From Pimelobacter simplex (GTDB lineage Bacteria > Actinomycetota > Actinomycetes > Propionibacteriales > Nocardioidaceae): a DNA stretch of 64,000 nucleotides. Under the pieces are notes generated by a model that made no database searches, was not told where the DNA came from, and was given only the letters and a program-made list of their open reading frames with translations. The stretch is from assembly GCA_016803235.1 (NCBI GenBank), contig JADCLI010000007.1, forward strand, positions 84,923-148,922. Direction: 5' to 3'. Shown piece after piece: positions 1,425 to 20,116 of the stretch. A program made the position numbers and the translations under genes. The first letter of the stretch is position 1. Each line of letters starts with the position of its first letter.

Positions 1425-2555
1425 ATGCCGACGCCGCCCGCCCTGCCCGCCGGCGCGCGCCTGCTGCACCTCGGTCCGCACAAGACCGGCACCACCGCGC
1501 TGCAGAGCGCCTTCGACCTCGCCCGGGCCGACCTCGGCCCCCAGGGCGTGCGCTACGTCTCGCGGAGCCGGCACGACGCCCGGGCCGCCCGCTACGTCAC
1601 CGACCGGATGGTCGCCGGACGCGACCCGGCGCGGGCCGAGCGCGCGTGGCGCGCGGTGGTGCGCGAGCTGACGGCCGCCAGCGACGAGCGCCGGGTGTTC
1701 AGCAGCGAGTTCCTCTCCGACGCCACCGACGAGCAGATCGCCCGGATCGTGCGCGAGGTCGGGACCGAGGACCTGTGGGTCGCCATCACGTTGCGGCCGC
1801 TCGCCCGGATCCTGTCGTCGCAGTACCAGCAGGGGCTGCAGCGGCAGAGCCCGCACACGTACGACGCGTGGCTGCGCATGGTTCTCGCCGAGGACGTGAG
1901 CGCCCCGGAGCCGCGCGAGTTCTGGACCAGGCACCGTCACGACGCCCTGGTCCGGCGGTGGGCCGACCACGTCGGCGCCGATCACGTCGTGGTCGTGGTC
2001 CTCGACCCGCGCGACCATGCCTTCCTTCCGCACACCTTCGAGCAGCTGCTCGGCCTGGCCCCGGAGACGCTGGCCGGCCGGGACGCGAAGGAGAACCGCT
2101 CCCTCACCGCCGACGAGGCGGAGCTGCTGCGGCGCTTCAACATCGACTTCGCCTCGCTGGGCCTGGGCCCCGACCACTACGTGCGGCTGTTCCGACACCT
2201 CAAGGACCACCTCAAGGAGCGGGAGCCCGCCCCGACCGAGGCCCCGCTGGTGACGCCGGACTGGGCGATCGAACGGGCGAACGCCGTCGCGGCCGAGATG
2301 GCCGAGGCGATCCGGGGTCTCGGCGCGGCCGTCCACGGAGACCTCGACTCGATCTCCACGACGAGGCTCGCCGGCGTGACCGCGACGGCCGAGCCCCCGG
2401 CGAACGTCGATGCCGCCGTCGCGGCATGGTTCGGCGCCGGCCTGGCCCTGGCCGCGGACCGGCTGACGTCGCTCGCGCCACCGGCGGCGGAGCCAGCGGC
2501 CGCCGCACCCCCGCCGGCCAGGGGCCTGCGCGGAAGGCTCAGTCGCCGAGGCTGA
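1425..2555 (+). CDS. Sulfotransferase-like P-loop protein (paralogue 1)
   Basis: This is a 376-residue soluble protein. Its N-terminus has the 5'-phosphosulfate-binding loop typical of PAPS-dependent sulfotransferases (LGPHKTGTTALQ). A second conserved block, LRPLARILSSQYQQG, matches the 3'-phosphate loop, which uses Arg and Ser. It also shares the NRSL-x4-E signature with the three leftward paralogues at 3966, 5099 and 7152. Expected chemistry is sulfate transfer from PAPS to a hydroxyl, but no PAPS-synthesis genes lie in the window and the acceptor is unknown. The surface-polymer neighbours suggest a glycan. An in-frame ATG at 1401 is possible. The 3' end overlaps the convergent gene ending at 2539 by 17 nt. 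Confidence 0.8.
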   Translation: MPTPPALPAGARLLHLGPHKTGTTALQSAFDLARADLGPQGVRYVSRSRHDARAARYVTDRMVAGRDPARAERAWRAVVRELTAASDERRVFSSEFLSDATDEQIARIVREVGTEDLWVAITLRPLARILSSQYQQGLQRQSPHTYDAWLRMVLAEDVSAPEPREFWTRHRHDALVRRWADHVGADHVVVVVLDPRDHAFLPHTFEQLLGLAPETLAGRDAKENRSLTADEAELLRRFNIDFASLGLGPDHYVRLFRHLKDHLKEREPAPTEAPLVTPDWAIERANAVAAEMAEAIRGLGAAVHGDLDSISTTRLAGVTATAEPPANVDAAVAAWFGAGLALAADRLTSLAPPAAEPAAAAPPPARGLRGRLSRRG

Positions 2556-3945
2556 AGGGGTCGTCCTTGCGGACGTCGTAGACGTGCCCGGACTGGTCGG
2601 AGATGAGCACGTCGACGGAGGTGCGGGCCACCGTCTGGGAGTCCAGCAGGGTGCCCGGCGCCTCCTGGCCGAAGGCCTTGGTGCGCATGGGGGTGGCGGT
2701 CCGCTCCGGGTTGATGCAGTTGACCCGCACGCCGGCGTCCGCCCACTCGTCGGCGAGCGCCTGGGTCAGGTTGACCGTGGCGGCCTTCGCCGAGGAGTAG
2801 AGGCTGTAGCCGCTGCGGCCGCGGGTGTAGGAGCTCGAGGTGAACAGCAGCAGCGCGCCCTGGCTCGCGGCCAGGTGCGGGTAGAACTCCTGGGCGATGA
2901 AGATCGGGCCGAGGTAGTTGATCTCGGTCGCGGCGTAGACCGTCTCCTCGGTGGTCTCGAGGAGCTCGCCACGCGGCAGCACGCCGGCGGTGTTGACGAC
3001 GAAGTCGATGGACCCGGCCTTCGCGATCGCCTCCCTCGCCGCCGCGGCGACGTCGGCGCGCCGGCCGACGTCGGTGTTGGTGGTCGATCGGCTGAAGGTG
3101 AGCACGGTGGCGCCGTAGGACTGGGCGAGCTCGGCGATGTCGGCACCGATCCCGTAGCTGCCGCCGAAGACGACCATGGTCTTGCCCTCGAGGGCGGCGC
3201 GGTACCCGGCGTCGTCCTTCGCGCGCGGCAGGTCGATGCCGGTGAGCTGGAACAGCTTGTCGGCGATGAAGACGTCGATCGGCTCGGTGACCTTCATGTT
3301 CCGGTCGTCGCCGTGGACCACGATGATCGGCTCGTCGGGCAGGTACTTCAGCACGACGCTGCAGTCGTCGGTGGCGGTGAAGTCGGGGTCTCCGGCGGCG
3401 ATCTCGTAGGCGCGGGCGAGGACGTCGAGCCGGAACGCCTGCGGGGTCTGGCCACGGCGCAGCGAGGCGCGCGGGGGGATGCTGCGGATGGTGTCGTCGG
3501 CATCGACCTCGATGATCGTGTCGGCCGACGGGATCGCGACGTCGACGGCCGGGTAGCGCTCCAGCGCGGTGAAGCACTCGCCGATGATCCGCGGCGTCAC
3601 GAGGGGCCGGACCGCGTCGTGGAGCAGGATCCGGGTGCCGGCCGCGTCGCCGGTCCCGATCAGGTGGTCGATGGCGCGCTGGGTGGTGTCGTTGCGGGTC
3701 TCGCCGCCCTCGAGGATCGCGGTGACCTTGGGGTAGGCGCCGCCGCGGGTGATGTCGCGGACCGCGTCGGTGTGGCCGGGGGTCATCATCACGACGACCT
3801 CGTCGACGTCGGCGTGGTCGTGCAGCGCGAGCAGGGTGTGCTCCAGCAGGGTCTTGCCGGCGACCTTGATGAGCTGCTTCGGGATGTCGAGTCCGACCCG
3901 GCTCCCGACACCACCGGCGAGCAGGACGGCGACATTCCTCGTCAT
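2539..3945 (-). CDS. Bifunctional cytidylyltransferase/SDR, probable CDP-ribitol synthase (Bcs1/TarIJ-type)
   Basis: This 468-residue protein is a two-domain fusion. Residues 1-230 are an IspD/TarI-type nucleotidyltransferase (LLAGGVGSR near residues 7-15, then PKQ). Residues ~250-468 are a short-chain dehydrogenase (GGSYGIGADIAE near 258, YSSAK catalytic pair near 384). The same architecture occurs in Haemophilus influenzae Bcs1, which reduces ribulose 5-phosphate and couples the ribitol 5-phosphate to CTP to give CDP-ribitol. The fusion and the TagF-like neighbour argue against a housekeeping IspD. It is the last gene of the leftward cluster, and GGGAG lies 12 nt before the ATG. The polyol is inferred; another sugar alcohol is possible. 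Confidence 0.85.
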   Translation of the reverse strand: MTRNVAVLLAGGVGSRVGLDIPKQLIKVAGKTLLEHTLLALHDHADVDEVVVMMTPGHTDAVRDITRGGAYPKVTAILEGGETRNDTTQRAIDHLIGTGDAAGTRILLHDAVRPLVTPRIIGECFTALERYPAVDVAIPSADTIIEVDADDTIRSIPPRASLRRGQTPQAFRLDVLARAYEIAAGDPDFTATDDCSVVLKYLPDEPIIVVHGDDRNMKVTEPIDVFIADKLFQLTGIDLPRAKDDAGYRAALEGKTMVVFGGSYGIGADIAELAQSYGATVLTFSRSTTNTDVGRRADVAAAAREAIAKAGSIDFVVNTAGVLPRGELLETTEETVYAATEINYLGPIFIAQEFYPHLAASQGALLLFTSSSYTRGRSGYSLYSSAKAATVNLTQALADEWADAGVRVNCINPERTATPMRTKAFGQEAPGTLLDSQTVARTSVDVLISDQSGHVYDVRKDDPFSLGD

Positions 3946-3965
3946 GGCTGGCAGTCTCCCACGGC

Positions 3966-5099
3966 TCAGGATCGGCGGAGGATTCGGCGCCGGAGCTCGG
4001 CGAGGATGGCGCGGCCGCTCACGGCGTCGAGCGAGGGGACGGGCGCGGCGGCGGACGGCTGTGGCGGAAGCGTGAGGGCGACGCGGAAGTAGGCCTCCAT
4101 CATCCGGCCGGCCGACGCGACGTCGACGGCCTCGGGGACCTCGACCTCGTCGGGGTGGGAGGCGGGGTCGCTGGACAGGTGGCGCACGTCGCCCAGCACG
4201 CGCGCGCCGGAGGACTCCAGCGCGTCGACCCAGTCGGCGACGTACTCGTTGGCGCGCTCCGCGGCCCACCGGGGCACCCGCACGGTCTGGTGCCGGGGCG
4301 CGGCCTCGACGACGGGCCGCAGCCTGATCCGGCGGGTGTCGCCCGCCGTGGCCATCCACGCGTCGAGGTCTCCCCCGTGGTCGCGGTAGGCGGTGGCGAA
4401 GTGCCGGAGCATCTCGGCCTCGGGCATCGGCAGCGACAGGTTGCGCGAGGGCGACGGCTCGAGCAGCTCGGGGACCCCGAGGAGGCTCTCGAACGCGCGC
4501 AGCAGCCACGCGTGGTCGGTCGGGTCGAGCACGACGAAGACCAGGTTCTCCTCGCCGAACACCGCGCCCCAGTCCTGGAGCACGCGGCGGGGGTTGAGCC
4601 GACGCAGCGCCTGGCCCGGGACGAAGCCGGCGCCGACGCCACCGAGCGGCTCCTCGGCGAAGGTGGTGCGCAGCCAGTCGTCGAGCGGCTGGGTGTGGGC
4701 GCGGCGCAGACCCTGCTGCCAGCGCGACGCGAGCTGGGGGGCGAGCGCGCGGATCGTGCACACGACGTACGACGGGCCGAGCTCCTCGCGCAGCCCGCGG
4801 ATCCGCTCGGGCAGGGCGAGCGACAGGGACTCGCTCGACCAGAACGTGCGCCGGGCCGTGGAGGTGCGGTACTCGCCGGCCAGCTGCTGCCAGCGCTCGT
4901 GCTCGGCGGCCCAGTAGGACCGGACGTTCCCGGCCGCGGTGATGGCGACCTTCCGCTCGTGCGGGCGCCGGGAGACGTTGTGGGCGCCGTGCTCCTCGAG
5001 CGCCGCTCGCGCCGCCCACAGGGAGTGCTGGAGCGCGGTGGTGCCGGTCTTCGGCATGCCGATGTGGAGCAGCTTGGCGCCGTCGGGCAGCGAGTCCAT
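3966..5099 (-). CDS. Sulfotransferase-like P-loop protein (paralogue 2)
   Basis: This is a 377-residue soluble protein. It has the PAPS-binding loop LHIGMPKTGTTALQ starting near residue 11, the 3'-phosphate-loop block IRALAPQLASRWQQGLRR, and the family block NLSLPMPEAEMLRHF. It is clearly homologous to the genes at 1425, 5099 and 7152. The ATG at 5099 shares one nucleotide with the upstream stop codon (TGATG), so the two genes are probably translationally coupled. The expected role is sulfation of a surface glycan or polyol phosphate. The substrate is unknown. Confidence 0.8.
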   Translation of the reverse strand: MDSLPDGAKLLHIGMPKTGTTALQHSLWAARAALEEHGAHNVSRRPHERKVAITAAGNVRSYWAAEHERWQQLAGEYRTSTARRTFWSSESLSLALPERIRGLREELGPSYVVCTIRALAPQLASRWQQGLRRAHTQPLDDWLRTTFAEEPLGGVGAGFVPGQALRRLNPRRVLQDWGAVFGEENLVFVVLDPTDHAWLLRAFESLLGVPELLEPSPSRNLSLPMPEAEMLRHFATAYRDHGGDLDAWMATAGDTRRIRLRPVVEAAPRHQTVRVPRWAAERANEYVADWVDALESSGARVLGDVRHLSSDPASHPDEVEVPEAVDVASAGRMMEAYFRVALTLPPQPSAAAPVPSLDAVSGRAILAELRRRILRRS

Positions 5100-6322
5100 C
5101 AGCGCTCCCGGAGGCGGCGGCGCGCGCGCCGGGCCAGCTCGCGGGCGGCGGTGCGGCGGGCGCCGTCCTGGTCGCGCGCGGCGTCCCAGTGCTCGGCGAC
5201 CGCGCGGTGCCGGGACCAGGCCGCCCGCTCGACCGGGCCGGCGAGGTCGCGGTGCGCGGGGCGGGGGTGCACTCCGGTCAGCTTGCTGATGATGCCGGCC
5301 GCGAGCGCGGCGGCCGCGGCCGGGTCGATCGCGGTGACGGGTGCGTTCTCACCCTCGGCGGGCGCGAGGGCGCGGTCGGAGAGCAGGCCGAGGTCGCCGA
5401 CGACCCGGGCGCCGGACACGCCGATCCGCTGGGCCATGCCGGCGCCGACCTCGAGGGCGCGGTCGACGGCCCATCCGGGGGTGAGCAGCCTCTCCGCGGC
5501 CGGGTCCGGGGGCGCGGCCTGCAGCCCGCGGGCGGCACCGAAACGGATGAACCGGCCGTGGTCGGCGCTGGTCCACGGCGCCCGGGAGGTGCGCTCGACG
5601 AGCTCCTGCATCAGGGTCGCCTCGGCGAAGGTCAGCGACCGGTTGGTCTTGTCCGCCGGAGGGCGGAGCAGGCCCTCGGGCAGCCCGAGCAGGCCCTCGA
5701 AGGCGGCCGGGAGGCCGCGGTGGTCACGGTCGTCGACGACGATCACGGTGACCCGGTCGCCGCCGACGAGGCGGACCCAGCGCTCGACCAGCCGGTCGTG
5801 GCGGTGCCGCTGCCAGAAGGACGGAGTGACGGTCCCGCCGTCCGGGTCCTCGGCCTGGGCGAGGATCGCGCGCAGCCAGTCGTCGTACGACGGCACGGGG
5901 ACGTTCTGGCCGTACTGCTGCCACTGCGAGCCGAGCAGGCGCACGATCGGGCGCACCGTGATGACGACGTGGGTCTGCGGGCCGAGCACGTCGAGCAGGG
6001 TGCGGGCGCCGTCGTCGGTGGCCTCGCAGTAGACCTCGCTGCTGAGCACGCCGACTCGCGGCCGGGCCGCCTGCATCGCGGCCACCATCGCGTACCACCG
6101 CTCGCGGAACGCCTCGACGTCCTTGCCCGGGTCCACCCGGCCGAGGGCGACCGCCATGGCTGCGTTCATCTCGTGCGCGAGCTCGCCCGGATAGGCGACG
6201 CCGTGCTCCGCCAGCGCGTCGCGGGCCTCCCACAGCGCCCCCTGCATGGCGGTGGTGCCGGTCTTGTAGGGCCCGATGTGGACCAGGGTCGTGCCGTCGG
6301 GCAGCGGCCGGACGTCGGTCAT
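5099..6322 (-). CDS. Sulfotransferase-like P-loop protein (paralogue 3)
   Basis: This is a 407-residue soluble protein with the PAPS loop LVHIGPYKTGTTAMQ near residue 12. The usual Pro-Lys of this loop is Tyr-Lys here. It also has the 3'-phosphate-loop block VRPIVRLLGSQWQQ and the family block NRSLTFAEATLMQEL. Its C-terminal ~60 residues are rich in Arg and Ala. The ATG at 6322 overlaps the upstream stop (ATGA) and its own stop overlaps the next start (TGATG), so it sits inside a coupled operon. The acceptor is unknown. Confidence 0.78.
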   Translation of the reverse strand: MTDVRPLPDGTTLVHIGPYKTGTTAMQGALWEARDALAEHGVAYPGELAHEMNAAMAVALGRVDPGKDVEAFRERWYAMVAAMQAARPRVGVLSSEVYCEATDDGARTLLDVLGPQTHVVITVRPIVRLLGSQWQQYGQNVPVPSYDDWLRAILAQAEDPDGGTVTPSFWQRHRHDRLVERWVRLVGGDRVTVIVVDDRDHRGLPAAFEGLLGLPEGLLRPPADKTNRSLTFAEATLMQELVERTSRAPWTSADHGRFIRFGAARGLQAAPPDPAAERLLTPGWAVDRALEVGAGMAQRIGVSGARVVGDLGLLSDRALAPAEGENAPVTAIDPAAAAALAAGIISKLTGVHPRPAHRDLAGPVERAAWSRHRAVAEHWDAARDQDGARRTAARELARRARRRLRER

Positions 6323-7155
6323 CGGCTCCCCCTCAGCCGGGTGAGGAGCGCGCGGGCCGGCAGCTCCTCGACGGGTACGACGAGCGCGCGGTCGGGCGCG
6401 AGGTCCACCGGTCGCTCGACCTGGCCGAGCATCACCTCGATCGCCGCGTCGGCGGCGACGTCGATCGGGACCAACCCGCGCTCGGCGGGCACCGGCCAGA
6501 GCAGCGCGTCGCGGGGCCCGCTGAGGGTGACCCCGTCGGCCTCGAGCTGCTCGAGGGCGGTCCGGCAGGCGTCCCGCATCGCGCGTGCCTCGGCCGGACC
6601 GAGGTCGGGGTCGGTGTCGAGGGCCCGGCTGATGCAGGCGGTCGCGTCGGCGGCGCCGTCGACGGCGGTCTGCCAGGCCGGGGGCAGCAGCACCTCGACC
6701 TGGGCGACGATCGCGTCGGCGTAGGCGCGGGCCGTGCCCTGGCCACCCGGCACGCTCTGGGGCGGGACCGGGTCGGCGTCGGTGTGGGCGGCCGCGGAAG
6801 CGACGTCGAAGCGCGGCCAGCGGCGGCCGGCGGCGAGGGTGAGCAGCTGGTCCAGCGAGGTGACCTCGTCGAGGGACACCGCGAGGTGGACCGGAGCGGA
6901 GGCGGTGTGGGCGGCGCGCACCTCGGCGACCCAGGCGGCCAGGCCCGCGGGCGTGGGCTCGGAGAGCAGCTCCGCGACGGCGCCGACGACGAGCAGGGTC
7001 CGGTCGGCGGGGAGGTCGGCGACCTCGACGAGCGTGACGTCGGGCAGCTCGTCGTCGTCGCGGGAGACCCGCTCGTCCTCGAGGGAGGCCCACCAGGTGG
7101 GGACGGCGAAGGTGTTCATCCCGGCGACGGCGTCGGGCACGCGGAGGACGCTCAT
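6319..7155 (-). CDS. Unrecognised 278-aa protein inside sulfotransferase operon
   Basis: I do not recognise a family. The protein is 278 residues, acidic, with no signal peptide or membrane segment, and is rich in Ala, Asp and Val. It alternates short hydrophobic strands (TLLVVGAVAELL, APVHLAVSLDEV) with helices, as in an alpha/beta fold. The start at 7155 and the stop at 6319 each overlap a flanking sulfotransferase-like gene by 4 nt (ATGA). Such tight coupling suggests it works with them, for example as a partner or as a degenerate member of the same family that has lost the P-loop. No catalytic motif is evident. Confidence 0.7.
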   Translation of the reverse strand: MSVLRVPDAVAGMNTFAVPTWWASLEDERVSRDDDELPDVTLVEVADLPADRTLLVVGAVAELLSEPTPAGLAAWVAEVRAAHTASAPVHLAVSLDEVTSLDQLLTLAAGRRWPRFDVASAAAHTDADPVPPQSVPGGQGTARAYADAIVAQVEVLLPPAWQTAVDGAADATACISRALDTDPDLGPAEARAMRDACRTALEQLEADGVTLSGPRDALLWPVPAERGLVPIDVAADAAIEVMLGQVERPVDLAPDRALVVPVEELPARALLTRLRGSR

Positions 7156-8324
7156 CCCCGGGTCACCCGTCGCCGGGCGCGGCGGCCGAGCTCTCGGGCG
7201 AGCTCGCGGACTCCGTACGCCGACAGGTCGCGTGCCTCCGGCGCGGCGCTCGGTGCCTTCGCGGCGTGCTGGAGGGCGGCGGTGAACGCGACGTCCATCA
7301 GCCGCCCGGCGCTCGCGACGTCGACGGTGGTCGGCACCTCGACGTGCTCGGCGTACTCCGCGGGGTCGACGACCAGGTCGGCGAGGTCCCCGACGACCGT
7401 CACGTCCGACGCCTCGACGGCGGCGTTCCAGGCGGCGGCGTACTCGTTGGCCCTCTCCGCGACCCAGCGCGGAGCCCGGATCGGGTGGGGCGTGGTGGTG
7501 TTGGTGTAGTCGCGCAGCGGCACGCGCGCGAGGACGCCGATCACCTCCATCCACGTGGGGTGGTCGCCGCCGTGGTCGGTCCAGGCCCGGTTGAAGTGCC
7601 GGAGCATCTCGGCCTCCGGGTAGGGCAGGGACGCGTTGCCCTCCGGCACGGCTCGCAGGACCTCCCCGACCCCCATCAGGCGCTCGAAGACCCGGAGGTT
7701 GCGATCCCGGTCGACCCGGTCGGGGACGACGAGCACGATCCGGTCCTCACCGAAGACCGGGCCCCACTCCTCGACGATCCGGCGCAGGCTGAACCGGTGC
7801 AGGGAGGGCATGAACCGGAGGTAGTCGATGGTCACCTCGCCGTCGACGGTCACCGCGGCGAACTGGTTCACCGCCCAGTCCTCGAGCGACTGGGTGCCGC
7901 GACGCCTCAGCCACTGCTGCCACTGCGACACCATGAGCGGCGCGAGCGGGCGCAAGGTGACCACGATGTGGGTGTCGTGCCCCAGCTGGTCGGCGAGGTA
8001 GGAGATCCGCTCCCCCCTGGCATGGCTCAGCGACTCGCTCGACCAGAAGGTGCAGCGCGCGTCGGACTCGCGGAACTCGGTCGCCAGCGCCTCCCAGCGC
8101 CGCTCCCAGGTGCCCTCCCAGAAGTCCGCGAGGCCGCCGGCCGCGACCTGGCCGACCCGCATCTCGTGCCGGCCGTGGTTGACGTTGTGGGCGCCGAGCG
8201 CCTCCAGCTCCGGGCGGGCGCGGTCGAGCGCGCCCTGCAGCGCCGTCGTCCCCGTCTTCGGGAGACCGATGTGGATGAACCGCGAGCCGTCCGGGAGGGC
8301 GTCGGGCAGGTCGACGATGCGCAT
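7152..8324 (-). CDS. Sulfotransferase-like P-loop protein (paralogue 4)
   Basis: This is a 390-residue soluble protein with the PAPS loop FIHIGLPKTGTTALQ near residue 16, the 3'-phosphate-loop block LRPLAPLMVSQWQQWLRR, and the family block NASLPYPEAEMLRHF. It is closest in layout to the paralogue at 3966. The start codon has a TAGGAT -10 box 6 nt upstream, formed partly from the stop codon of the gene at 8334, so it may have its own leaderless promoter as well as read-through. Its 3' end overlaps the next gene by 4 nt. The acceptor is unknown. Confidence 0.8.
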   Translation of the reverse strand: MRIVDLPDALPDGSRFIHIGLPKTGTTALQGALDRARPELEALGAHNVNHGRHEMRVGQVAAGGLADFWEGTWERRWEALATEFRESDARCTFWSSESLSHARGERISYLADQLGHDTHIVVTLRPLAPLMVSQWQQWLRRRGTQSLEDWAVNQFAAVTVDGEVTIDYLRFMPSLHRFSLRRIVEEWGPVFGEDRIVLVVPDRVDRDRNLRVFERLMGVGEVLRAVPEGNASLPYPEAEMLRHFNRAWTDHGGDHPTWMEVIGVLARVPLRDYTNTTTPHPIRAPRWVAERANEYAAAWNAAVEASDVTVVGDLADLVVDPAEYAEHVEVPTTVDVASAGRLMDVAFTAALQHAAKAPSAAPEARDLSAYGVRELARELGRRARRRVTRG

Positions 8325-8330
8325 CGCGTG

Positions 8331-8336
8331 ATCCTA
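8331..8336 (-). promoter_or_regulatory. -10 box TAGGAT built on an upstream stop codon
   Basis: TAGGAT lies 6 nt before the ATG at 8324. Its TAG is the stop codon of the TagF-like gene (8334-8336). Confidence 0.5.
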
Positions 8337-11300
8337 GGACGCGGTCCCGAAGAAGGCGGCGGCGACCCGTTGCGCCGCATGCCCGTCCATGAACCGGCTG
8401 AACCGCTCGTGGAAGGCCGCCACCTCGCCGGCGTACCGCCGCTGCAGGCCGTCGAGGTCGCGGAGCAGGTCGACGACCTGCTCGGCGGTGTCGACGTGCG
8501 GGCCCGGAGCGGTGGGGCCGTAGTCGTAGAGGAAGCCGCGCACGCCGCCGACGTAGGTGTCGAGGTCGGGGACCAGGAAGACCATCGGGCGGTCGGTGAG
8601 CGCGAAGTCGAAGCGCAGCGAGGAGTAGTCGAGCACTGCGGCGTCGGCCGCGAGGATCAGGTCGTTGATCTCGGGGTACTCGGTCACGTCGAGGAAGCGG
8701 GCCCCCGCGCCGTCGCCGGCGGGGTTGTGGAACCGGTGGCCGCGCAGCAGCAGGACGTAGTCGGGGCCCAGCTCGCGGGCGGCGGAGGCGACGTCGAGAT
8801 GGTGCACCGCGTCGGCCGCGCGCCAGTTGGTCGCCTGGTCGTCGCGCCAGGTGGGGGCGTAGAGGATCGCCTTCTGGTGCGGCGCGATGCCGAGCCGGCG
8901 GCGCGCGTCCTCCCGGACGGCCGCGGCCCGTTCGTCCACGAGCACGTCGTCGCGGGGGTAGCCCTCGCTGTGGATCGCGCCGTCGTAGGCGTACTCGCGG
9001 CGGTAGTACTGGTCCATCTCCGGGTCCGGGGTCAGGATCAGGTCCCACTGCTGGGAGGTGCGGGCCAGCTCGAGCTCGATGCGACGCGGCGGGTAGTGCT
9101 TGGCGTCCCACATCCGGATGCCCATCGACTTCGACGGGTAGCCGTGGAAGGTCTGCAGCAGCCGCTGCCCGGGACGCTTGCGGAACCAGCGCTCCGGGTC
9201 GATGTTCATGCACAGCTGGCCGGCGGCGGCCATCACGCGGTACCACTCGCGGGTGGTCATCACGACGGGTACGGCGCCCTCGGGCACCCACGACGCGGCC
9301 GACGCGACGCCCCAGTAGAGCGTGAGGTCGGGGCGGGTACGCCGCAGCTCGTGGTGCAGCGCGACCTGGCTGTCGGTCGCGGAGGCGCCGACGTAGGACT
9401 GGAAGTAGACCGCGTCCGGCTCGAGCGGGATGTCGCCGTCGGCGTACCACTCCTGGAGCTGGGTCTGGCCGTAGGGGACGCGATCCTCGACCGGCACCGG
9501 CGGGAGCAGCTCGACGCCGGCGACGCGGCCCTCCTGCACGACGCGGGCGGAGTAGTGGGAGCCGACCATGAAGTGGTGGAGGCGGTCGATGCCGCGCTCG
9601 CCGAGGAGGGCGCGGGTGGTGGTCCCGTCGGCGGTCACGGCCAGCCAGAGCCAGGCGGGCGCGAGCGGGCGCTCGCCGAGGCCCCAGCGGTCGGTCGTGA
9701 GGGTGACGCTGGCGCGGACGGTGCCGTCCTCGTCGGCCGGCGGCAGCTCCGCGGCGAGGACCTCGGTGCCGCCGACCTGGGTGAGGAGCGCGAGGCGGGC
9801 GGCGGGGACCGGGCGGCCGAGCCAGCGGCCGGTGACGTCGAGGCGCAGGCCCTCGACGACCAGGTCGTCGACGACGAGGGTGCCGGCGGTCTCGTAGAGC
9901 TCGGTGTCGCCGGACGGGGTGCGGGAGCCGACCAGCTCGCCCTCGCCGACCGCGAGCCACTGGGGCGCAGCAGCCGCCCAGCCGAGCGCGACCTCGCGGC
10001 CGTCGGCGACGAGCGCCCGCACCTGCCAGCGTCGCTGGCCGGACCAGGCGGCAGGGAGCTGGAGCCGGAAGGCCCGGCTGCCGTGGGGTCCCTCCGTGAG
10101 CTCGGCGCGGACCTGCTGGGTGCCCTGGGTGACGCGCAGGCCGGCGATCGTCGTACCGGCCGGGTCGATGGTGCCGGTGACGGTCCGGCCCTCGACCGCG
10201 AGGCCGAGCAGGCGCGGTCCCCGGTCGGGCCGGACCCGCAGGCCGACGACGTCGGAGCGCGGGTTGAACGCGACCACCGAGCCCGCGACCGGGCGGGGTG
10301 CGAGGTGGTCGCGGCCGATGAAGCCGGCCGAGGCCTGCTCGTCGATGAGCGGGACGGCGCCCGAGCGTCGTACGCCGTCGACGTCGATGTCGACCTCGAG
10401 GACCCAGGTGGCGCTGTCGCCGGTCGCGGCGACCACCTCGGCGACCGGCACGACCGCGTCGAAGGCACCCCAGGAGTAGTCCTGGTGGCGGCGCAGCGCC
10501 TGGTTGGCGCGGGCGTCGCGGAACTGCCGCACCCGCAGCGGGATCCGCTGCCCGCTCGCCCGGTCGACGAGTGCGCAGGCGATCGTCGGGCTCGAGGTCA
10601 TGTGCACGAAGTCGACGGCCGCGAACACCGTCAGCTCGAGGGTGGTGGCGTCGACCCACCGGGCCTCGCGCAGCATCGCCCGGAACCGGGTCTCGTCGGC
10701 GGTCATCTCGAACAGCTCGGGCGGGATGCCGAGCTCGGCGTCGTCGTGGTGCGGCAGCAGCGCCCACACCTTGCCGTCGCGGACCTCCGTGGGCCGGTTG
10801 CCGCGCGTGAACAGGCGGGCACCCAGGAAGTCCTCGAGCGCCTTGCGGTGACCGCCCTGCAGCAGCCAGAGCTTGACCCGGGCCTCGGCCGCCAGGCGCG
10901 CCCAGACGTGCTCGTCGGCAGCGTCGAGCAGCATCGCCACGTGGTCGCGCAGGGTCTGCCACTGGCGCTCGTCGGCCCGCTCGACGTCGGCGATCAGCGG
11001 CTGCACGCCCGTGTCGAGCACGCCCCACAGGAACCACTCACTGACCTCGGGCAGGCCGAGCGCCTCCACCCGGTGCCAGGTGTGGTCGTTGCGGTCGATC
11101 CACCCGGCCAGCCCGCTGAGCACGTCGGGCACGGTGCCGACCTGGACGCCGTCGCGGCGGTCGGTGGGGATGTAGGTGAAGTCGGCCAGCAGGTCGAAGG
11201 CGGACGCCCTCTCGAGCAGCCCGAGCGCGACGTCGGCGCCGTCGGGGAACTCGTCGGTGAAGCGCAGGCCGAGCTGGTCCCAGGAGGCGCGCGTGAAGAG

Positions 11301-11903
11301 CTTGTTGCCCAGGCCCAGGTCGGTGACGGCGACCGGGGTGGCCGCGAGCGTCGTACCGCGGACGGGGGTGTGGTGCGCGGCGTCGTACGCCGAGTCGGGG
11401 ATCCAGCCCGCGATGTCGGGCTCGCGCATCGCGCCGACCACCACCGGCGAGCCGGAGCGGGTGTGGGCCTCGACCAGCCGCTCGATGCCGGTGTGGACGA
11501 AGTCGTCGCCCGCGTTGGTCACGACCACGACCAGCTCGCCGGACGCGGCGGCGACGCCGGCGTTGCGGGCGGCGGCGAGGGACTTCTCGACCTTGATCCG
11601 GGTCTTGATCCGCCAGTCCGCGGCGGCGTGCTCGCGCACCGTCGCGGTGACCCGGTCGTGGCGCCCGAAACGCACCACGAGGACCTCGAGGTTGCGATGG
11701 GTCTGGACCTTCAGCGAGTCCAGGCAGGTGCCGATCCGGGTGGTGTCGTCGTCGCTGACGGGCAGCACGACGGTGACCAGCGGCCCGGAGAACTCACCGC
11801 GGAAGCGGCGGGTGGCACGGCCGACGGGACCCCGCAGTCGCCCGGGTCCTGCCTTGGCGAGCCGGATCAGGCCCTGCTGGGCGCGGGCGCGGTCGAGTGC
11901 CAC
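8334..11903 (-). CDS. Bifunctional GT2 glycosyltransferase / TagF-like polyol-phosphate polymerase
   Basis: This 1189-residue protein has an N-terminal GT-A (GT2) domain (VTVVLPVSDDD near residue 45, then AAARNAGVAAASGE). A long middle section is made of beta-rich repeats. The C-terminal ~400 residues are of the CDP-glycerol:polyglycerophosphate glycerophosphotransferase family: LQTFHGYPSKSMG near 915, LTPDPEMDQYY, ILYAPTWRDD near 1012, and DYSSLRFDFALTDRPMVF. The protein should polymerise glycerol- or ribitol-phosphate from a CDP-activated donor onto a wall-linked or lipid acceptor at the inner membrane face. With a probable CDP-ribitol synthase in the same transcript, ribitol-phosphate is the more likely unit. 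The GTG start at 11903 has GGAAGGA 7 nt upstream. It is the first gene of the leftward cluster. Confidence 0.88.
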   Translation of the reverse strand: MALDRARAQQGLIRLAKAGPGRLRGPVGRATRRFRGEFSGPLVTVVLPVSDDDTTRIGTCLDSLKVQTHRNLEVLVVRFGRHDRVTATVREHAAADWRIKTRIKVEKSLAAARNAGVAAASGELVVVVTNAGDDFVHTGIERLVEAHTRSGSPVVVGAMREPDIAGWIPDSAYDAAHHTPVRGTTLAATPVAVTDLGLGNKLFTRASWDQLGLRFTDEFPDGADVALGLLERASAFDLLADFTYIPTDRRDGVQVGTVPDVLSGLAGWIDRNDHTWHRVEALGLPEVSEWFLWGVLDTGVQPLIADVERADERQWQTLRDHVAMLLDAADEHVWARLAAEARVKLWLLQGGHRKALEDFLGARLFTRGNRPTEVRDGKVWALLPHHDDAELGIPPELFEMTADETRFRAMLREARWVDATTLELTVFAAVDFVHMTSSPTIACALVDRASGQRIPLRVRQFRDARANQALRRHQDYSWGAFDAVVPVAEVVAATGDSATWVLEVDIDVDGVRRSGAVPLIDEQASAGFIGRDHLAPRPVAGSVVAFNPRSDVVGLRVRPDRGPRLLGLAVEGRTVTGTIDPAGTTIAGLRVTQGTQQVRAELTEGPHGSRAFRLQLPAAWSGQRRWQVRALVADGREVALGWAAAAPQWLAVGEGELVGSRTPSGDTELYETAGTLVVDDLVVEGLRLDVTGRWLGRPVPAARLALLTQVGGTEVLAAELPPADEDGTVRASVTLTTDRWGLGERPLAPAWLWLAVTADGTTTRALLGERGIDRLHHFMVGSHYSARVVQEGRVAGVELLPPVPVEDRVPYGQTQLQEWYADGDIPLEPDAVYFQSYVGASATDSQVALHHELRRTRPDLTLYWGVASAASWVPEGAVPVVMTTREWYRVMAAAGQLCMNIDPERWFRKRPGQRLLQTFHGYPSKSMGIRMWDAKHYPPRRIELELARTSQQWDLILTPDPEMDQYYRREYAYDGAIHSEGYPRDDVLVDERAAAVREDARRRLGIAPHQKAILYAPTWRDDQATNWRAADAVHHLDVASAARELGPDYVLLLRGHRFHNPAGDGAGARFLDVTEYPEINDLILAADAAVLDYSSLRFDFALTDRPMVFLVPDLDTYVGGVRGFLYDYGPTAPGPHVDTAEQVVDLLRDLDGLQRRYAGEVAAFHERFSRFMDGHAAQRVAAAFFGTAS

Positions 11904-11973: not shown

Positions 11974-12579
11974 TCAGGCGGGGCGGCGGGCCTGGGTGCG
12001 GGCCTGCGCCTCGAGGGCGTGGATCTGCGAGGTGAGGACGTCGAGCTCGGCCTCGAGCTCGGCGACCCGGACGACGGCCTGGTTGGCCCGCTCGTCGGCA
12101 GCGGCGAGCTGCTGGGTGAGCCGGTCGTTGGCGCGCTGGGCCGCCTCGGCACGGTCGCCGGCCTCGGCCAGCTCGCGACGGGCGTCGGCCAGCTCGGCGG
12201 CGGCGTCGCCGAGGCGCTTCTCGAGGCGGGCGATCGTGGCGTCGCGCTTGGCGACCTTGCCAGTCATGTCGGCGGCGAACTCGATGTTCTCCGCGGTACG
12301 GACCTCGGTCAGGTCGGCGTAGGCACGCGCCTGGGCGGCCCGGTCGCGGGCGGCCTCCTGACGGGAGTCCAGGAGCTCGGTGTGGGTGATCTTGGTGGCC
12401 GCGGCGCCCAGGACGAGGGCGGCGACCGCGGCGATCGTGACGAGGACCCAGGAGCCGGTCACGGCCGTGCCGGCGACGGCGAGCGTCGCGAGCACGAGGA
12501 GGAGGACAGCGACCAGGACCCGAGTGGAGCGCTGACGACGGCGGTTGCCGGACATGACAGGGGAAGTCATGGCTTGCAC
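11974..12579 (-). CDS. Membrane-anchored coiled-coil protein
   Basis: This is a 201-residue protein with two adjacent hydrophobic segments near residues 20-40 and 45-62 (LVAVLLLVLATLAVAG, WVLVTIAAVAALVLGAA), followed by ~135 residues of heptad-rich Ala/Glu/Arg coiled coil. The GTG at 12579 is chosen because GGAGG lies exactly 6 nt upstream. The downstream ATGs at 12570 and 12555 have poorer spacing. The family is unrecognised. A structural or scaffold role at the membrane is plausible but not shown. Confidence 0.75.
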   Translation of the reverse strand: MQAMTSPVMSGNRRRQRSTRVLVAVLLLVLATLAVAGTAVTGSWVLVTIAAVAALVLGAAATKITHTELLDSRQEAARDRAAQARAYADLTEVRTAENIEFAADMTGKVAKRDATIARLEKRLGDAAAELADARRELAEAGDRAEAAQRANDRLTQQLAAADERANQAVVRVAELEAELDVLTSQIHALEAQARTQARRPA

Positions 12580-15093: not shown

Positions 15094-16677
15094 ATGGCCG
15101 AGGCTCCTCACGACCCTTCCGTGTCCGTCGTGATCCCGACCTTCCGCTCCGGGCCGGGGCTGGACCGCGCGATCGCGTCGCTGGACGCGCAGACCCTGCC
15201 CCAGGACGACCTCGAGGTGCTGCTGCTGGACGACGGCTCCCCCGACGACACCGCGGCGCGGATCGAGCAGGTCGCGGCCGGGCGGGCGAACTACCGGGCG
15301 TTCGCACTGGAGCCGTCCGGGTGGCCGAGCCGGCCCCGCAACATCGGTGTCCGCGAGGCCCGCGGGCGCTACGTGCTCTTCCTCGACCACGACGACGAGC
15401 TGTATCCCGACGCCCTGCGGGCCGCGGTCGCACTCGGGGACGCGGCCGGAGCCGACGTGGTCAACGGCAAGGAGGTGCGGACCCAGATCGCGCGCTGGGG
15501 CCTGACGCACTACACCCACGACACGGCCGACGCGAGCGCCGAGCCGCTGCGCGGGCTGTTGCCGATGACGCCGCACAAGCTCTACCGGCGCGCGTTCCTG
15601 GTCGAGCACGACATCCGCTTCCCCGAGGCGCCGCGGCACCTGTGGGAGGACCTCTTCTTCCACGTCGACGTGATCCGGCACGAGCCGGCCGTCGCCCTGC
15701 TGAGCTCGACGCCCTTCTACCACTGGCGCAAGACCGCCGAGAACAACTCGACGTCCACCGACGGCACCCGCCTCGACTACAGCGGCGACCCCGAGTACTG
15801 GCCCTACCTCGACAAGCTGTTCCGGCTGGTCTCGGGCGTCGAGAAACCGGAGATCCGCGACGAGCTGCTCGCCCAGAACGTGCACGTCCGGCTGGTCTCC
15901 CAGCTCGGCCAGCGCGCGACCGACACGGGCGACGCGGGCGGCGCGAGCGTCGCCGAGGCGCGGGCCGAGATCGCCCGGATGCTCGCGACCTACGTCCCGG
16001 CCGAGCTCGACGCCCTGCTGCCCGAGCGCAGTCGGGTCGCGATCACCCTGTTCCGCGCCGGCCACGCCGACGCGGCGGCCGAGTTCCTGCGCGACGGCAT
16101 CGACCGCAAGCCCGACTTCACCGTCACCGCGGTCGAGGACGCCGGCGACGGCAGCGTCACCGTGAGCGGCACCGTGGCGTGGAGCCGGGTGCCCGGGCAG
16201 CCCTTCGCTCGTCGTACGACGTCCGGCGAGGTGGTCCGCGACCTGCCCGAGCCGCTGGCCGGCCTGCTCGCCGAGCACGGCCTGACCCCGACGGCGGACG
16301 TGGCGGACGCGTTCGTGGAGGTGGCGATCCGGCACGCCCCGACCCGGGTCAACTGGCTGCTGCCGTCGACGTCGCAGGTCGCGCTCGTCGAGCAGGAGGA
16401 CGGCACCCTGGAGCCGGCCGGCACCTTCACGGCACGCTTCGACCCGGCGACCGCCGCGATGGGCGGCGCGCTGCCGGCGGGTGCCCACCTGGTGCTCGGC
16501 ATGTGCGAGCTCGACGGCCGCACCGGCATCAAGCGGGCCTTCAGCGACCTCCCTGCCGGGACCGGGGTGGGACCGGTCGTGCTGGACTACTCCGCCCAGG
16601 ACGGACTGCTGCTGCGGCTCCCCGCCGACGTGCCACCCGCCCGCAAGGGCCTGCTCGGCCGCCTGCGGCGGGGCTGA
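15094..16677 (+). CDS. GT2-family glycosyltransferase (wall-polymer decorating type)
   Basis: This 527-residue protein has an N-terminal GT-A domain: SVSVVIPTFRSGPGL near residue 9, LLLDDGSPDD, PSRPRNIGVREARGRYVLFLDHDDE (DXD-like DHDD near residue 105), and WEDLFFHVDV. A C-terminal half (~320-527) of beta-rich segments follows. The layout resembles glycosyltransferases that decorate poly(ribitol phosphate), such as TarS or TarP, but I cannot assign the sugar. It is divergent from folP and convergent with rmlA, and forms part of the sugar cassette inserted between folE and folP. Confidence 0.82.
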   Translation: MAEAPHDPSVSVVIPTFRSGPGLDRAIASLDAQTLPQDDLEVLLLDDGSPDDTAARIEQVAAGRANYRAFALEPSGWPSRPRNIGVREARGRYVLFLDHDDELYPDALRAAVALGDAAGADVVNGKEVRTQIARWGLTHYTHDTADASAEPLRGLLPMTPHKLYRRAFLVEHDIRFPEAPRHLWEDLFFHVDVIRHEPAVALLSSTPFYHWRKTAENNSTSTDGTRLDYSGDPEYWPYLDKLFRLVSGVEKPEIRDELLAQNVHVRLVSQLGQRATDTGDAGGASVAEARAEIARMLATYVPAELDALLPERSRVAITLFRAGHADAAAEFLRDGIDRKPDFTVTAVEDAGDGSVTVSGTVAWSRVPGQPFARRTTSGEVVRDLPEPLAGLLAEHGLTPTADVADAFVEVAIRHAPTRVNWLLPSTSQVALVEQEDGTLEPAGTFTARFDPATAAMGGALPAGAHLVLGMCELDGRTGIKRAFSDLPAGTGVGPVVLDYSAQDGLLLRLPADVPPARKGLLGRLRRG

Positions 16678-16735: not shown

Positions 16736-18704
<1,969 letters not shown>

Positions 18705-18712
18705 GGCATCCG

Positions 18713-20116
18713 ATGGTCGATCCCGTCGAGACCCTGCGCGTCGAGACGACGCCGATCCCGGGCCTGCTCGTGGTCCACCTGCCGGTGCACGGCGACGACC
18801 GCGGCTGGTTCAAGGAGAACTGGCAGCGCGAGAAGATGGTCGCGCTCGGCCTGCCCGACTTCGGGCCGGTGCAGAACAACATGAGCTTCAACGCCGCCCG
18901 CGGTGCGACCCGCGGCATCCACACCGAGCCGTGGGACAAGTTCGTCTCGGTCGCCACCGGCAAGGTGTTCGCGGCCTGGGTGGACATGCGCGAGGGCGAG
19001 ACCTTCGGGGCGACGTACTGGACCGAGGTCGACGAGAGCGTCGCCGTGTTCGTCCCGCGGGGCGTCGGCAACTCCTACCAGGCGCTGGCCGACGGCACCG
19101 TGTACTCCTACCTGGTCAACGACCACTACGTCGCCGGCCGGGTCTACCCCGCGCTCAACCTGGCCGACACCACGGTCGCCATCCCGTGGCCGATCCCGCT
19201 CGACTCCGGCGAGGTCGAGATCTCCGCGAAGGACCTCGCCAACCCGGCGCTGGCCGACGTCGAGCCGATGGCGCCGAAGAAGACGCTGATCACCGGCTGC
19301 CGGGGCCAGCTCGGCCAGGCACTCGCGCCGCTCTACCCCGGCGCCACCCTCGTCGACCTCGACGAGCTCGACCTCACCGACGAGGCGGCGCTGGCCGCGT
19401 GGCCGTGGGAGGAGTACGGGCTCATCCTCAACGCCGCCGCCTACACCGCGGTCGACAAGGCCGAGACGCCCGAGGGCCGTCCCGTGGCCTGGGCCGCCAA
19501 CGCAGCCGCTCCCGCCGCCCTCGCTCGGATCGCTGCGGCCCGGGGGATCACCCTCGTGCACTACTCCACCGACTACGTCTTCGACGGCTCGGAGGTCTCC
19601 GGTGGTCACACCGAGGAGGAGGGCTTCGCCCCCCTCGGCGTCTACGGCCAGACCAAGGCGGCCGGCGACCTCGCCGTCGCCGGTGCGCCGCGCCACTACG
19701 TGCTGCGGACCTCCTGGGTGATCGGCGAGGGCCACAACTTCGTGCGCACCATGGCCAGGCTCGCCGCCGACGGCGTCGACCCGGCGGTCGTGTCCGACCA
19801 GGTCGGCCGGTTGACGTTCACCTCCGAGCTGGCCCGGGCCACCGCGCACCTGGTGGGCACCGGTGCGCCGTACGGCACCTACAACGTCACCAACGGCGGC
19901 GCCCCCCGCTCGTGGGCCGACTACGCCCGCAAGGTCTTCGAGCTCACCGGTCACGACCCGGCCCGGGTGAGCACCGTGACGACCGAGGAGTACGGCGCCG
20001 GCAAGGACCTCTCGCCGCGGCCGCTGCACAGCACGCTGGCGCTGGACAAGCTCGCCGGCACCGGGTTCGTGAGCACGGACGCCGACGAGGCGCTGGCGAA
20101 GTACCTCTCGGCCTGA
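18713..20116 (+). CDS. RmlC-like epimerase fused to RmlD reductase
   Basis: This 467-residue fusion would catalyse the last two steps to dTDP-L-rhamnose in one chain. Residues 1-180 are an RmlC-like cupin (DDRGWFKENW, RGIHTEPWDKFVSVATGKVFAAWVDMREG). Residues ~185-467 are RmlD (ITGCRGQLGQAL, LILNAAAYTAVDKAE, STDYVFDG, VYGQTKAAGD with Tyr and Lys). The cupin half departs from classic RmlC after the catalytic RGIH: the usual HYQ-P-Q-K pattern reads HTEPWDK. The epimerase may therefore have altered specificity, and the sugar made could be a rhamnose isomer such as 6-deoxytalose. Confidence 0.88.
   Translation: MVDPVETLRVETTPIPGLLVVHLPVHGDDRGWFKENWQREKMVALGLPDFGPVQNNMSFNAARGATRGIHTEPWDKFVSVATGKVFAAWVDMREGETFGATYWTEVDESVAVFVPRGVGNSYQALADGTVYSYLVNDHYVAGRVYPALNLADTTVAIPWPIPLDSGEVEISAKDLANPALADVEPMAPKKTLITGCRGQLGQALAPLYPGATLVDLDELDLTDEAALAAWPWEEYGLILNAAAYTAVDKAETPEGRPVAWAANAAAPAALARIAAARGITLVHYSTDYVFDGSEVSGGHTEEEGFAPLGVYGQTKAAGDLAVAGAPRHYVLRTSWVIGEGHNFVRTMARLAADGVDPAVVSDQVGRLTFTSELARATAHLVGTGAPYGTYNVTNGGAPRSWADYARKVFELTGHDPARVSTVTTEEYGAGKDLSPRPLHSTLALDKLAGTGFVSTDADEALAKYLSA

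Follow-up and report, generated by a model that had tools for sequence, protein, structure and literature searches.

Sulfotransferase-like genes within a teichoic acid-type locus of Pimelobacter simplex, and their recurrence in related actinomycetes

Organization of the locus

The stretch of DNA analysed here, referred to as the window, comprises 64,000 nucleotides (nt) of the genome of Pimelobacter simplex (contig JADCLI010000007.1 of assembly GCA_016803235.1, positions 84,923 to 148,922), and this report concerns a group of genes near its left end in which sulfotransferase-like (ST) genes are interspersed with genes for a teichoic acid-type polymer. STs within a teichoic-type locus are a combination without a published example among the open-access literature matches listed, and the association predicts, with somewhat better than even probability, a sulfated ribitol-phosphate surface polymer.

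The core of the locus is an operon-like run of genes transcribed leftwards (2539-11903, minus strand). Read in the direction of transcription, it contains a TagF-type polyol-phosphate polymerase of 1189 amino acids (aa) with an N-terminal GT2-like domain and an uncertain start codon (8334-11903), the sulfotransferase-like protein ST1 (7152-8324; 390 aa), a protein designated U278 (6319-7155; 278 aa), ST2 (5099-6322; 407 aa), ST3 (3966-5099; 377 aa), and a Bcs1/TarIJ-type fusion of a ribitol-5-phosphate cytidylyltransferase and a short-chain dehydrogenase/reductase (SDR) (2539-3945; 468 aa). The successive spacings from the TagF-type gene to that for Bcs1 are +9, -4, -4, -1 and +20 nt. ST4 (1425-2555, plus strand; 376 aa) is convergent with the Bcs1 gene, and beyond it lies a GT61 glycosyltransferase gene (-236 to 1371, minus strand, its last part left of the window; 535 aa; PF04577 E 9.4e-20 on L003:17687-19294). 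A preliminary description of this DNA had proposed a tightly coupled leftward series of a TagF-like, three ST and a Bcs1-type gene, with a fourth ST and a GT61 gene adjacent to it; all of these genes are in place, the series with spacings of -4 to +20 nt, although U278, between ST1 and ST2, had been missed.

The sulfotransferase-like proteins

ST1, ST2 and ST3 share 34-40% identity with ST4. All four contain K-T-G-T-T, in the form PKTGTT in ST1 and ST3, YKTGTT in ST2 and HKTGTT in ST4; the loops for 3'-phosphoadenosine 5'-phosphosulfate (PAPS) noted in the preliminary description (PKTGTT or variants) are thus present as stated. PAPS is known to be contacted by a K-[ST]-G-[ST]-[ST]-type loop and by an arginine and a serine with an eight-residue spacing. 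In a 40-row alignment of the family, K23, T24 and G25 of such a loop are present in all 37 ungapped rows, and R125 and S133, with the eight-residue spacing, are present together with E97 in all 40 rows. The profile of a wider 24-member set (A5) matches 3rnl, named 'Sulfotransferase', among the PDB sequences (E 2.5e-5, 26.8 bits), the R-x7-S motifs of the two lining up and the loop matching more weakly; apart from 3rnl nothing is found at E 0.001, and two constructs of heparan sulfate 3-O-sulfotransferase 5 (E 1.1 and 1.9) rank under three unrelated chains. Sulfotransfer_4 is matched at E<=0.1 by 16 of the 40 family members (best 1.4e-7), and within the 24-member set it is touched by five members and Sulfotransfer_3 by four. 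Motifs and the remote profile match together make it highly probable that the family are sulfotransferases.

Some results count against this assignment. None of ST1-ST4 is above a Pfam or NCBIfam cut-off, the best match being to Sulfotransfer_4 with an E value of 0.0084, below the cut-off; a narrower 18-row ST profile (A2) finds no solved sulfotransferase among the PDB sequences; and profile comparison of the family with other ST groups gives weak links, the best at E 0.0028. These results are what would be expected if the P-loop proteins were relatives with the PAPS fold that do not transfer sulfate, or some other nucleotide-dependent enzyme. We think this very unlikely, given the invariant loop and R-x7-S motifs, their alignment on 3rnl, the Sulfotransfer_4 matches across the family, and the sulfatases and curated Sulfotransfer_2/_3 proteins present at such loci (see below).

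An origin of the four STs as recent tandem copies is rejected because ST2, ST4, and ST1 together with ST3 fall into different supported groups of the family tree; ST4 forms a clade of its own, and ST2 groups with Streptomyces STs. Three distant paralogues of the family are encoded at two other places in the same genome (C54 and C21; L037-L039, L072, L073), with E values of 6.1e-31 to 1.7e-23.

Inspected by eye, the STs have no signal peptide and no membrane segment, and PAPS is cytosolic; sulfation would therefore take place before export. The last 20 residues carry a net charge of at least +5 in 61% of 54 locus STs and in 92% of 13 Streptomyces STs, and likewise in 72% of 18 Sulfotransfer_3-type proteins and 78% of nine STs outside such loci; the corresponding figures are 5% for 1020 other proteins, 50% for eight TarS-like proteins and 0 of 16 for the Sulfotransfer_2-/_1-type groups. 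This distribution suggests membrane binding by the basic C-terminal tails of the STs.

U278 has no Pfam or NCBIfam match. Profile alignment with hhalign matches it to the C-terminal region of the STs (E 7.1e-5 and 2.3e-5; against the STs, 11 other profiles give no better than 0.0028), and it is without a PAPS loop. Among the loci searched it is present in the window and in six other genomes, always in a locus with both TagF and an ST, and it may be a non-catalytic partner of these enzymes.

The TagF-type polymerase and the presumed Bcs1-type CDP-ribitol synthase

The TagF-type protein matches PF04464 (E 8.9e-79) and the GT2 family PF00535 (E 8.1e-12), and among solved structures it matches TagF (3l7i, E 1.7e-48), TarL (8va1, E 3.5e-19) and Cps3D (8qoy, E 3.9e-13). 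Its earlier designation as a GT2/TagF-like polymerase holds for the TagF part and for the GT2 family match, but not for the usual DxD-type motif of the GT2 half, where TNAGDD replaces the DSDD-type motif; sugar transfer by this half is consequently doubtful. When 59 TagF-type proteins, that of the window and those of relatives' loci, were scanned with a pattern for this position, 10 had the altered form and 16 the usual DSDD/DADD, while 33 escaped the pattern. PF04464 is also matched weakly (E 8.1e-10) at another place in the genome (G000:C11:195568-195936, L002).

The Bcs1-type protein has matches to PF01128 (E 2e-46) and PF00106 (E 2.2e-32), an IspD/TarI-type domain fused to an SDR, and its best solved match is the ribitol-5-phosphate cytidylyltransferase 6xhp (E 1.8e-32). 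We discounted the possibility that it is the isoprenoid IspD, since the genome has another IspD-family gene elsewhere. We infer that ribitol is the polyol and CDP-ribitol the Bcs1 product, which is supported by the published Streptomyces case discussed below.

Recurrence in the host genus and family

The association of these genes is real and recurrent, beyond chance. In a search of 116 genomes, with Bcs1 taken at E<=1e-60 and neighbours counted within 25 kb, Bcs1 is present in 25 genomes of the host genus among the matches listed, 23 of which have PF04464 within that distance. An ST of this family lies within 25 kb in 17 of these 23 among the matches listed, where 1.5 would be expected, a nominal figure in which placement is taken as random and the relatedness of the genomes is left out of account. 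A second sample, drawn with Bcs1, consists of 80 named loci (the best 80 of 475, some of them short contigs) that were searched in six frames with profiles for five ST groups; it overlaps with the first (L074=G034, L078=G035, L084=G054, L091=G015, L116=G067, L086=G267). At least one ST is present in 15 of its 20 Nocardioides loci (TagF is present in 18, including all 15), in four of the six named only as Nocardioidaceae, and in 13 of 23 from Streptomyces. The closest named Bcs1 locus among those listed is from Nocardioides daeguensis, its Bcs1 being 99% identical; the Nocardioides loci include L074 and L075, from N. daeguensis and N. albidus. The preliminary description had called for a search of this neighbourhood across the Nocardioidaceae, and it does recur there, both within the genus and in a second genus of that family (L174), and also in Streptomyces with a different gene order.

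The STs at these loci are of several kinds. By Pfam searches with representatives, the same Nocardioides site also harbors Sulfotransfer_3-type proteins (eight genes in five loci, the cut-off being reached by one of the two representatives scanned), two related Sulfotransfer_2-type sets (five and two genes) and one Sulfotransfer_3/1-type gene. GT61 genes also recur in the loci of relatives, and in one fragmentary host-genus genome a sulfatase gene adjoins Bcs1 (L048:3214-4395, minus strand).

Absences weigh on the other side. Six of the 23 host-genus genomes with TagF and Bcs1 are without an ST of this family (G011, G015, G035, G039, G052 and G059), and clustering of their loci detected no other ST group there either; in the Bcs1-drawn sample, the five ST groups are found at none of the 31 loci from outside Nocardioides, Nocardioidaceae and Streptomyces. 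Sulfation of the polymer is therefore at most an optional feature.

Streptomyces and a wider class sample

Streptomyces loci have the order PhoD, ST, Bcs1, PF04464 protein and TarS-linker glycosyltransferase (read in S. xylophagus NRRL B-12029, L138:7072-15047, and S. olivochromogenes DSM 40451, L150:6998-15160, with Pfam assignments for L138), and are bounded by what we take to be an obgE-like gene on the PhoD side and a proB-like gene on the glycosyltransferase side. In 13 of the 23 loci the ST, present singly, is the immediate neighbour of Bcs1.

In a class sample of 394 genomes, with thresholds of E<=1e-50 for the ST family and E<=1e-120 for Bcs1, the ST family is present in 74 genomes, Bcs1 in 65 and both in 22, where 12.2 are expected (Fisher p 0.001, kinship ignored). 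At a stricter ST cut-off of E<=1e-100, 22 of 28 genomes have Bcs1 (4.6 expected). This proportion is biased upward, since the cut-off was set once the list was known and the model used (A4) derives from Bcs1-linked loci; 22 of 74 against 12.2 is the fairer comparison. Across the samples, the coupling of ST genes with genes for teichoic-type synthesis is not confined to a single lineage. Physical proximity is less common: an ST lies within 25 kb of Bcs1 in 11 of the 65 Bcs1 genomes among the matches listed, five of them from the host genus, one from a sister genus (L174, the locus again following the fol genes) and five from genus g32 of family f22, where the locus of L178 resembles that of Streptomyces.

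Of the loci retrieved, 25 have an ST with no Bcs1 nearby (L165-L173 and L179-L194). The TagF model matches nine of these, and among the eight of the nine scanned with Pfam, PF04464 is confirmed in five (L170, L180, L182, L189 and L190) and a GT2 domain only is found in three. Confirmation of PF04464 in just five of 25, together with the housekeeping neighbours of several others, counts against the explanation preferred below, and some STs away from TagF and Bcs1 lie beside genes such as those for 6PGD, metG, PEPCK or a chorismate-binding enzyme. STs of the family stand alone or in small arrays next to housekeeping genes in L165, L166, L168, L169 and L173. Two genomes of another family have a TagF-type gene, a sulfatase (PF00884) and an ST in that order (L170:4946-10238 and L182:4856-10048). 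A dedication of the ST family to teichoic acids is weakened by the lone STs and strengthened by the TagF-sulfatase-ST sets.

The lone STs bear directly on the question of the acceptor. The STs could be real sulfotransferases that act on a parallel surface glycan or glycolipid, for example a rhamnose-containing polysaccharide, leaving the teichoic-type polymer unsulfated; in agreement with this, 63 of the 74 ST genomes of the class sample are without Bcs1 within 25 kb, and rml-like genes and the GT61 gene are close by in the window. Such an arrangement would not readily account for the position of the window STs inside a TagF-Bcs1 run with overlapping genes, for the single Streptomyces ST directly beside Bcs1, or for the convergence of several ST groups on the same Nocardioides site, and we consider it unlikely.

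Flanking genes

The locus is flanked on one side by genes that we presume to be DUF2520, panC, panD, nadB and nadC, and on the other by DUF3180, folK, folB, folP, folE and ftsH by the same reckoning, the FtsH product being identified by Pfam. Next to the TagF-type gene is one for a 201-aa coiled-coil protein with a hydrophobic N-terminal stretch (11974-12579, minus strand), conserved next to TagF in relatives. Between folP and folE sit a TarS-like GT2 glycosyltransferase gene (15094-16677, plus strand; PF00535 E 7.5e-23, PF22181 TarS_linker E 3.4e-8), whose product is a possible decorator of the polymer, and presumptive rmlA-, rmlB- and rmlC/D-like genes for dTDP-rhamnose supply (16736-20116). 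The same interval in host-genus relatives is occupied by varying sets of surface-polymer genes (TagF, Bcs1, GT61 and STs), and Pfam searches with representatives identify acyltransferases, methyltransferases and glycosyltransferases there as well. A protein of about 580 aa is encoded at this site in two loci (L047:14039-15787 and L053:2525-4258, both minus strand); that of L047 has a methyltransferase domain and a LicD match below the cut-off.

PAPS supply, wall linkage and export

The preliminary description had also pointed to PAPS synthesis genes as something to look for elsewhere in the genome, and a gene for adenosine 5'-phosphosulfate (APS) kinase is indeed present, as part of a 673-aa fusion (L154:6174-8195, plus strand). 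The whole protein is presumably a fusion of ATP-sulfurylase-like, CysC and low-molecular-weight-phosphatase-like parts, and appears to lie near TauE-like and CysD-like genes. APS kinase is matched in 100 of the 116 genomes, including 69 of the 71 of the host genus, and we dropped it as a discriminating marker because it is nearly universal in the genus.

Components of a conventional wall teichoic acid pathway are less apparent. WecG/TagA (PF03808) has no match at E<=0.001 in the genome, whereas a control search found PF03808 in seven of 14 genomes, and there are ten ABC2_membrane matches, of which seven neighbourhoods were viewed by eye and none is clearly TagGH. Linkage of the Bacillus type is therefore not supported, and both results count against the explanation preferred below. 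They are compatible with a sulfated polymer that is a capsule-like or lipid-anchored polyol-phosphate, as with the Gram-negative Bcs1/TagF-like capsules, instead of a wall teichoic acid, as is the TagF-type protein's match to the capsule polymerase Cps3D. The matches to TagF and TarL are stronger than that to Cps3D, a TarS-linker glycosyltransferase is encoded nearby, and the comparable locus of Streptomyces griseus makes a wall polymer (PMC13274773), so that a capsule-like product seems rather less probable than a wall polymer. Since the anchor is the sole difference, this alternative overlaps with the explanation that we prefer; more generally, the rival explanations overlap in part with it.

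Proposed pathway

The explanation that we favour, by a modest margin over an even chance, is that a ribitol-phosphate surface polymer, or the sugars on it, is sulfated in the cytosol with PAPS as the donor. Bcs1/TarIJ would make CDP-ribitol, from which the TagF-type enzyme, working at the membrane's inner face, would build a ribitol-phosphate chain, and the TarS-like and GT61 enzymes would attach sugars to the chain. The four cytosolic STs, held near the membrane by their basic C-terminal tails, would then use PAPS to sulfate different hydroxyls of the chain or its sugars ahead of export, possibly with U278 as a non-catalytic partner. Gene content and coupling, family matches, conserved PAPS-type motifs and the recurrence of the association come from the computation itself; the choice of this polymer over other glycans as the acceptor, the positions that would be sulfated, and the presumed membrane tethering, wall attachment and biological role are inferred.

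The preliminary description had joined teichoic acid and sulfotransferase chemistry into a sulfated polyol-phosphate polymer. The recurrence of the locus, the additional ST groups, the sulfatases and the APS kinase gene speak for that proposal; the six of 23 genus loci without an ST, and the lone STs beside housekeeping genes, speak against it. As a broader and speculative view, possible more than probable, Nocardioides and some Streptomyces might carry a ribitol-phosphate polymer diversified by an exchangeable set of STs drawn from several groups; these would work in the cytosol, their basic tails bringing them to the chain while it is bound to the membrane, and U278 would be a pseudo-sulfotransferase that tunes one of them. 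This would amount to a species-specific code of surface sulfation, kept varied by phages or by lectin-bearing toxins.

Teichoic acids carry phosphate, and the modifications known for them are mainly glycosylation and alanylation. If the proposal is true, enzymatic sulfation would be new chemistry for this class of polymer; it would give the wall a negative charge independent of phosphate and extend the occurrence of bacterial sulfated glycans to soil actinobacteria. The variation between species seen here recalls Streptomyces, where diversification of surface polymers has been linked to lectin-bearing toxins (PMC13274773).

Comparison with known systems

A search of the open-access literature, whose coverage leaves many carbohydrate journals outside, found no sulfated teichoic acid and no ST in a teichoic acid locus among the matches listed, and the terms 'CDP-ribitol' and 'sulfotransferase' together, judged by title and abstract, retrieve only studies of mammalian or human glycosylation. 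The Haemophilus-type Bcs1 and the Gram-negative TagF-like capsule polymerases resemble the present system in having a fused cytidylyltransferase-reductase for CDP-ribitol and TagF-type polymerisation, although these capsules belong to Gram-negative bacteria and the host here is Gram-positive; we know of no STs in the capsule loci of these two kinds.

The capsule of Cobetia marina KMM 1449 is similar to the proposed polymer in that it contains sulfated rhamnose and a glycerol-phosphate substituent and is made with PAPS and ST genes (PMC11766843). It differs in coming from a Gram-negative organism and in having a polysaccharide backbone to which glycerol phosphate is attached as a side group, and the covered part of that paper does not mention a TagF/Bcs1-type system (PMC11766843). 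In Actinoplanes missouriensis the wps-1 cluster is likewise an actinomycete surface-polymer cluster with two predicted sulfotransferases, but it belongs to a Wzx/Wzy polysaccharide pathway and not to polyol phosphates, and its sulfation is predicted (PMC13390465). The same 2026 paper still calls bacterial sulfated polysaccharides exclusive to cyanobacteria (PMC13390465); Cobetia is another case (PMC11766843).

A close parallel is the wall teichoic acid/teichuronic-like locus of S. griseus. It comprises TarIJ (SGR_4956), TagF (SGR_4957) and utr genes, TarIJ and TagF being next to the genes for ribosomal proteins L21 and L27, and its wall polymer is a ribitol phosphate by nuclear magnetic resonance (PMC13274773). 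Like the locus described here, it has a TarIJ-type fusion, a TagF-type protein and a TarS-like glycosyltransferase, and its gene content varies between species (PMC13274773). The decoration in S. griseus is a teichuronic-like glycan with O-acetyl groups, and the main text, supplement aside, contains no word starting with 'sulf' (PMC13274773). The position of the Streptomyces Bcs1 loci in our samples beside an obgE-like gene is consistent with the L21/L27 anchors of that paper (PMC13274773), whereas the Nocardioides locus occupies another chromosomal site and has several STs.

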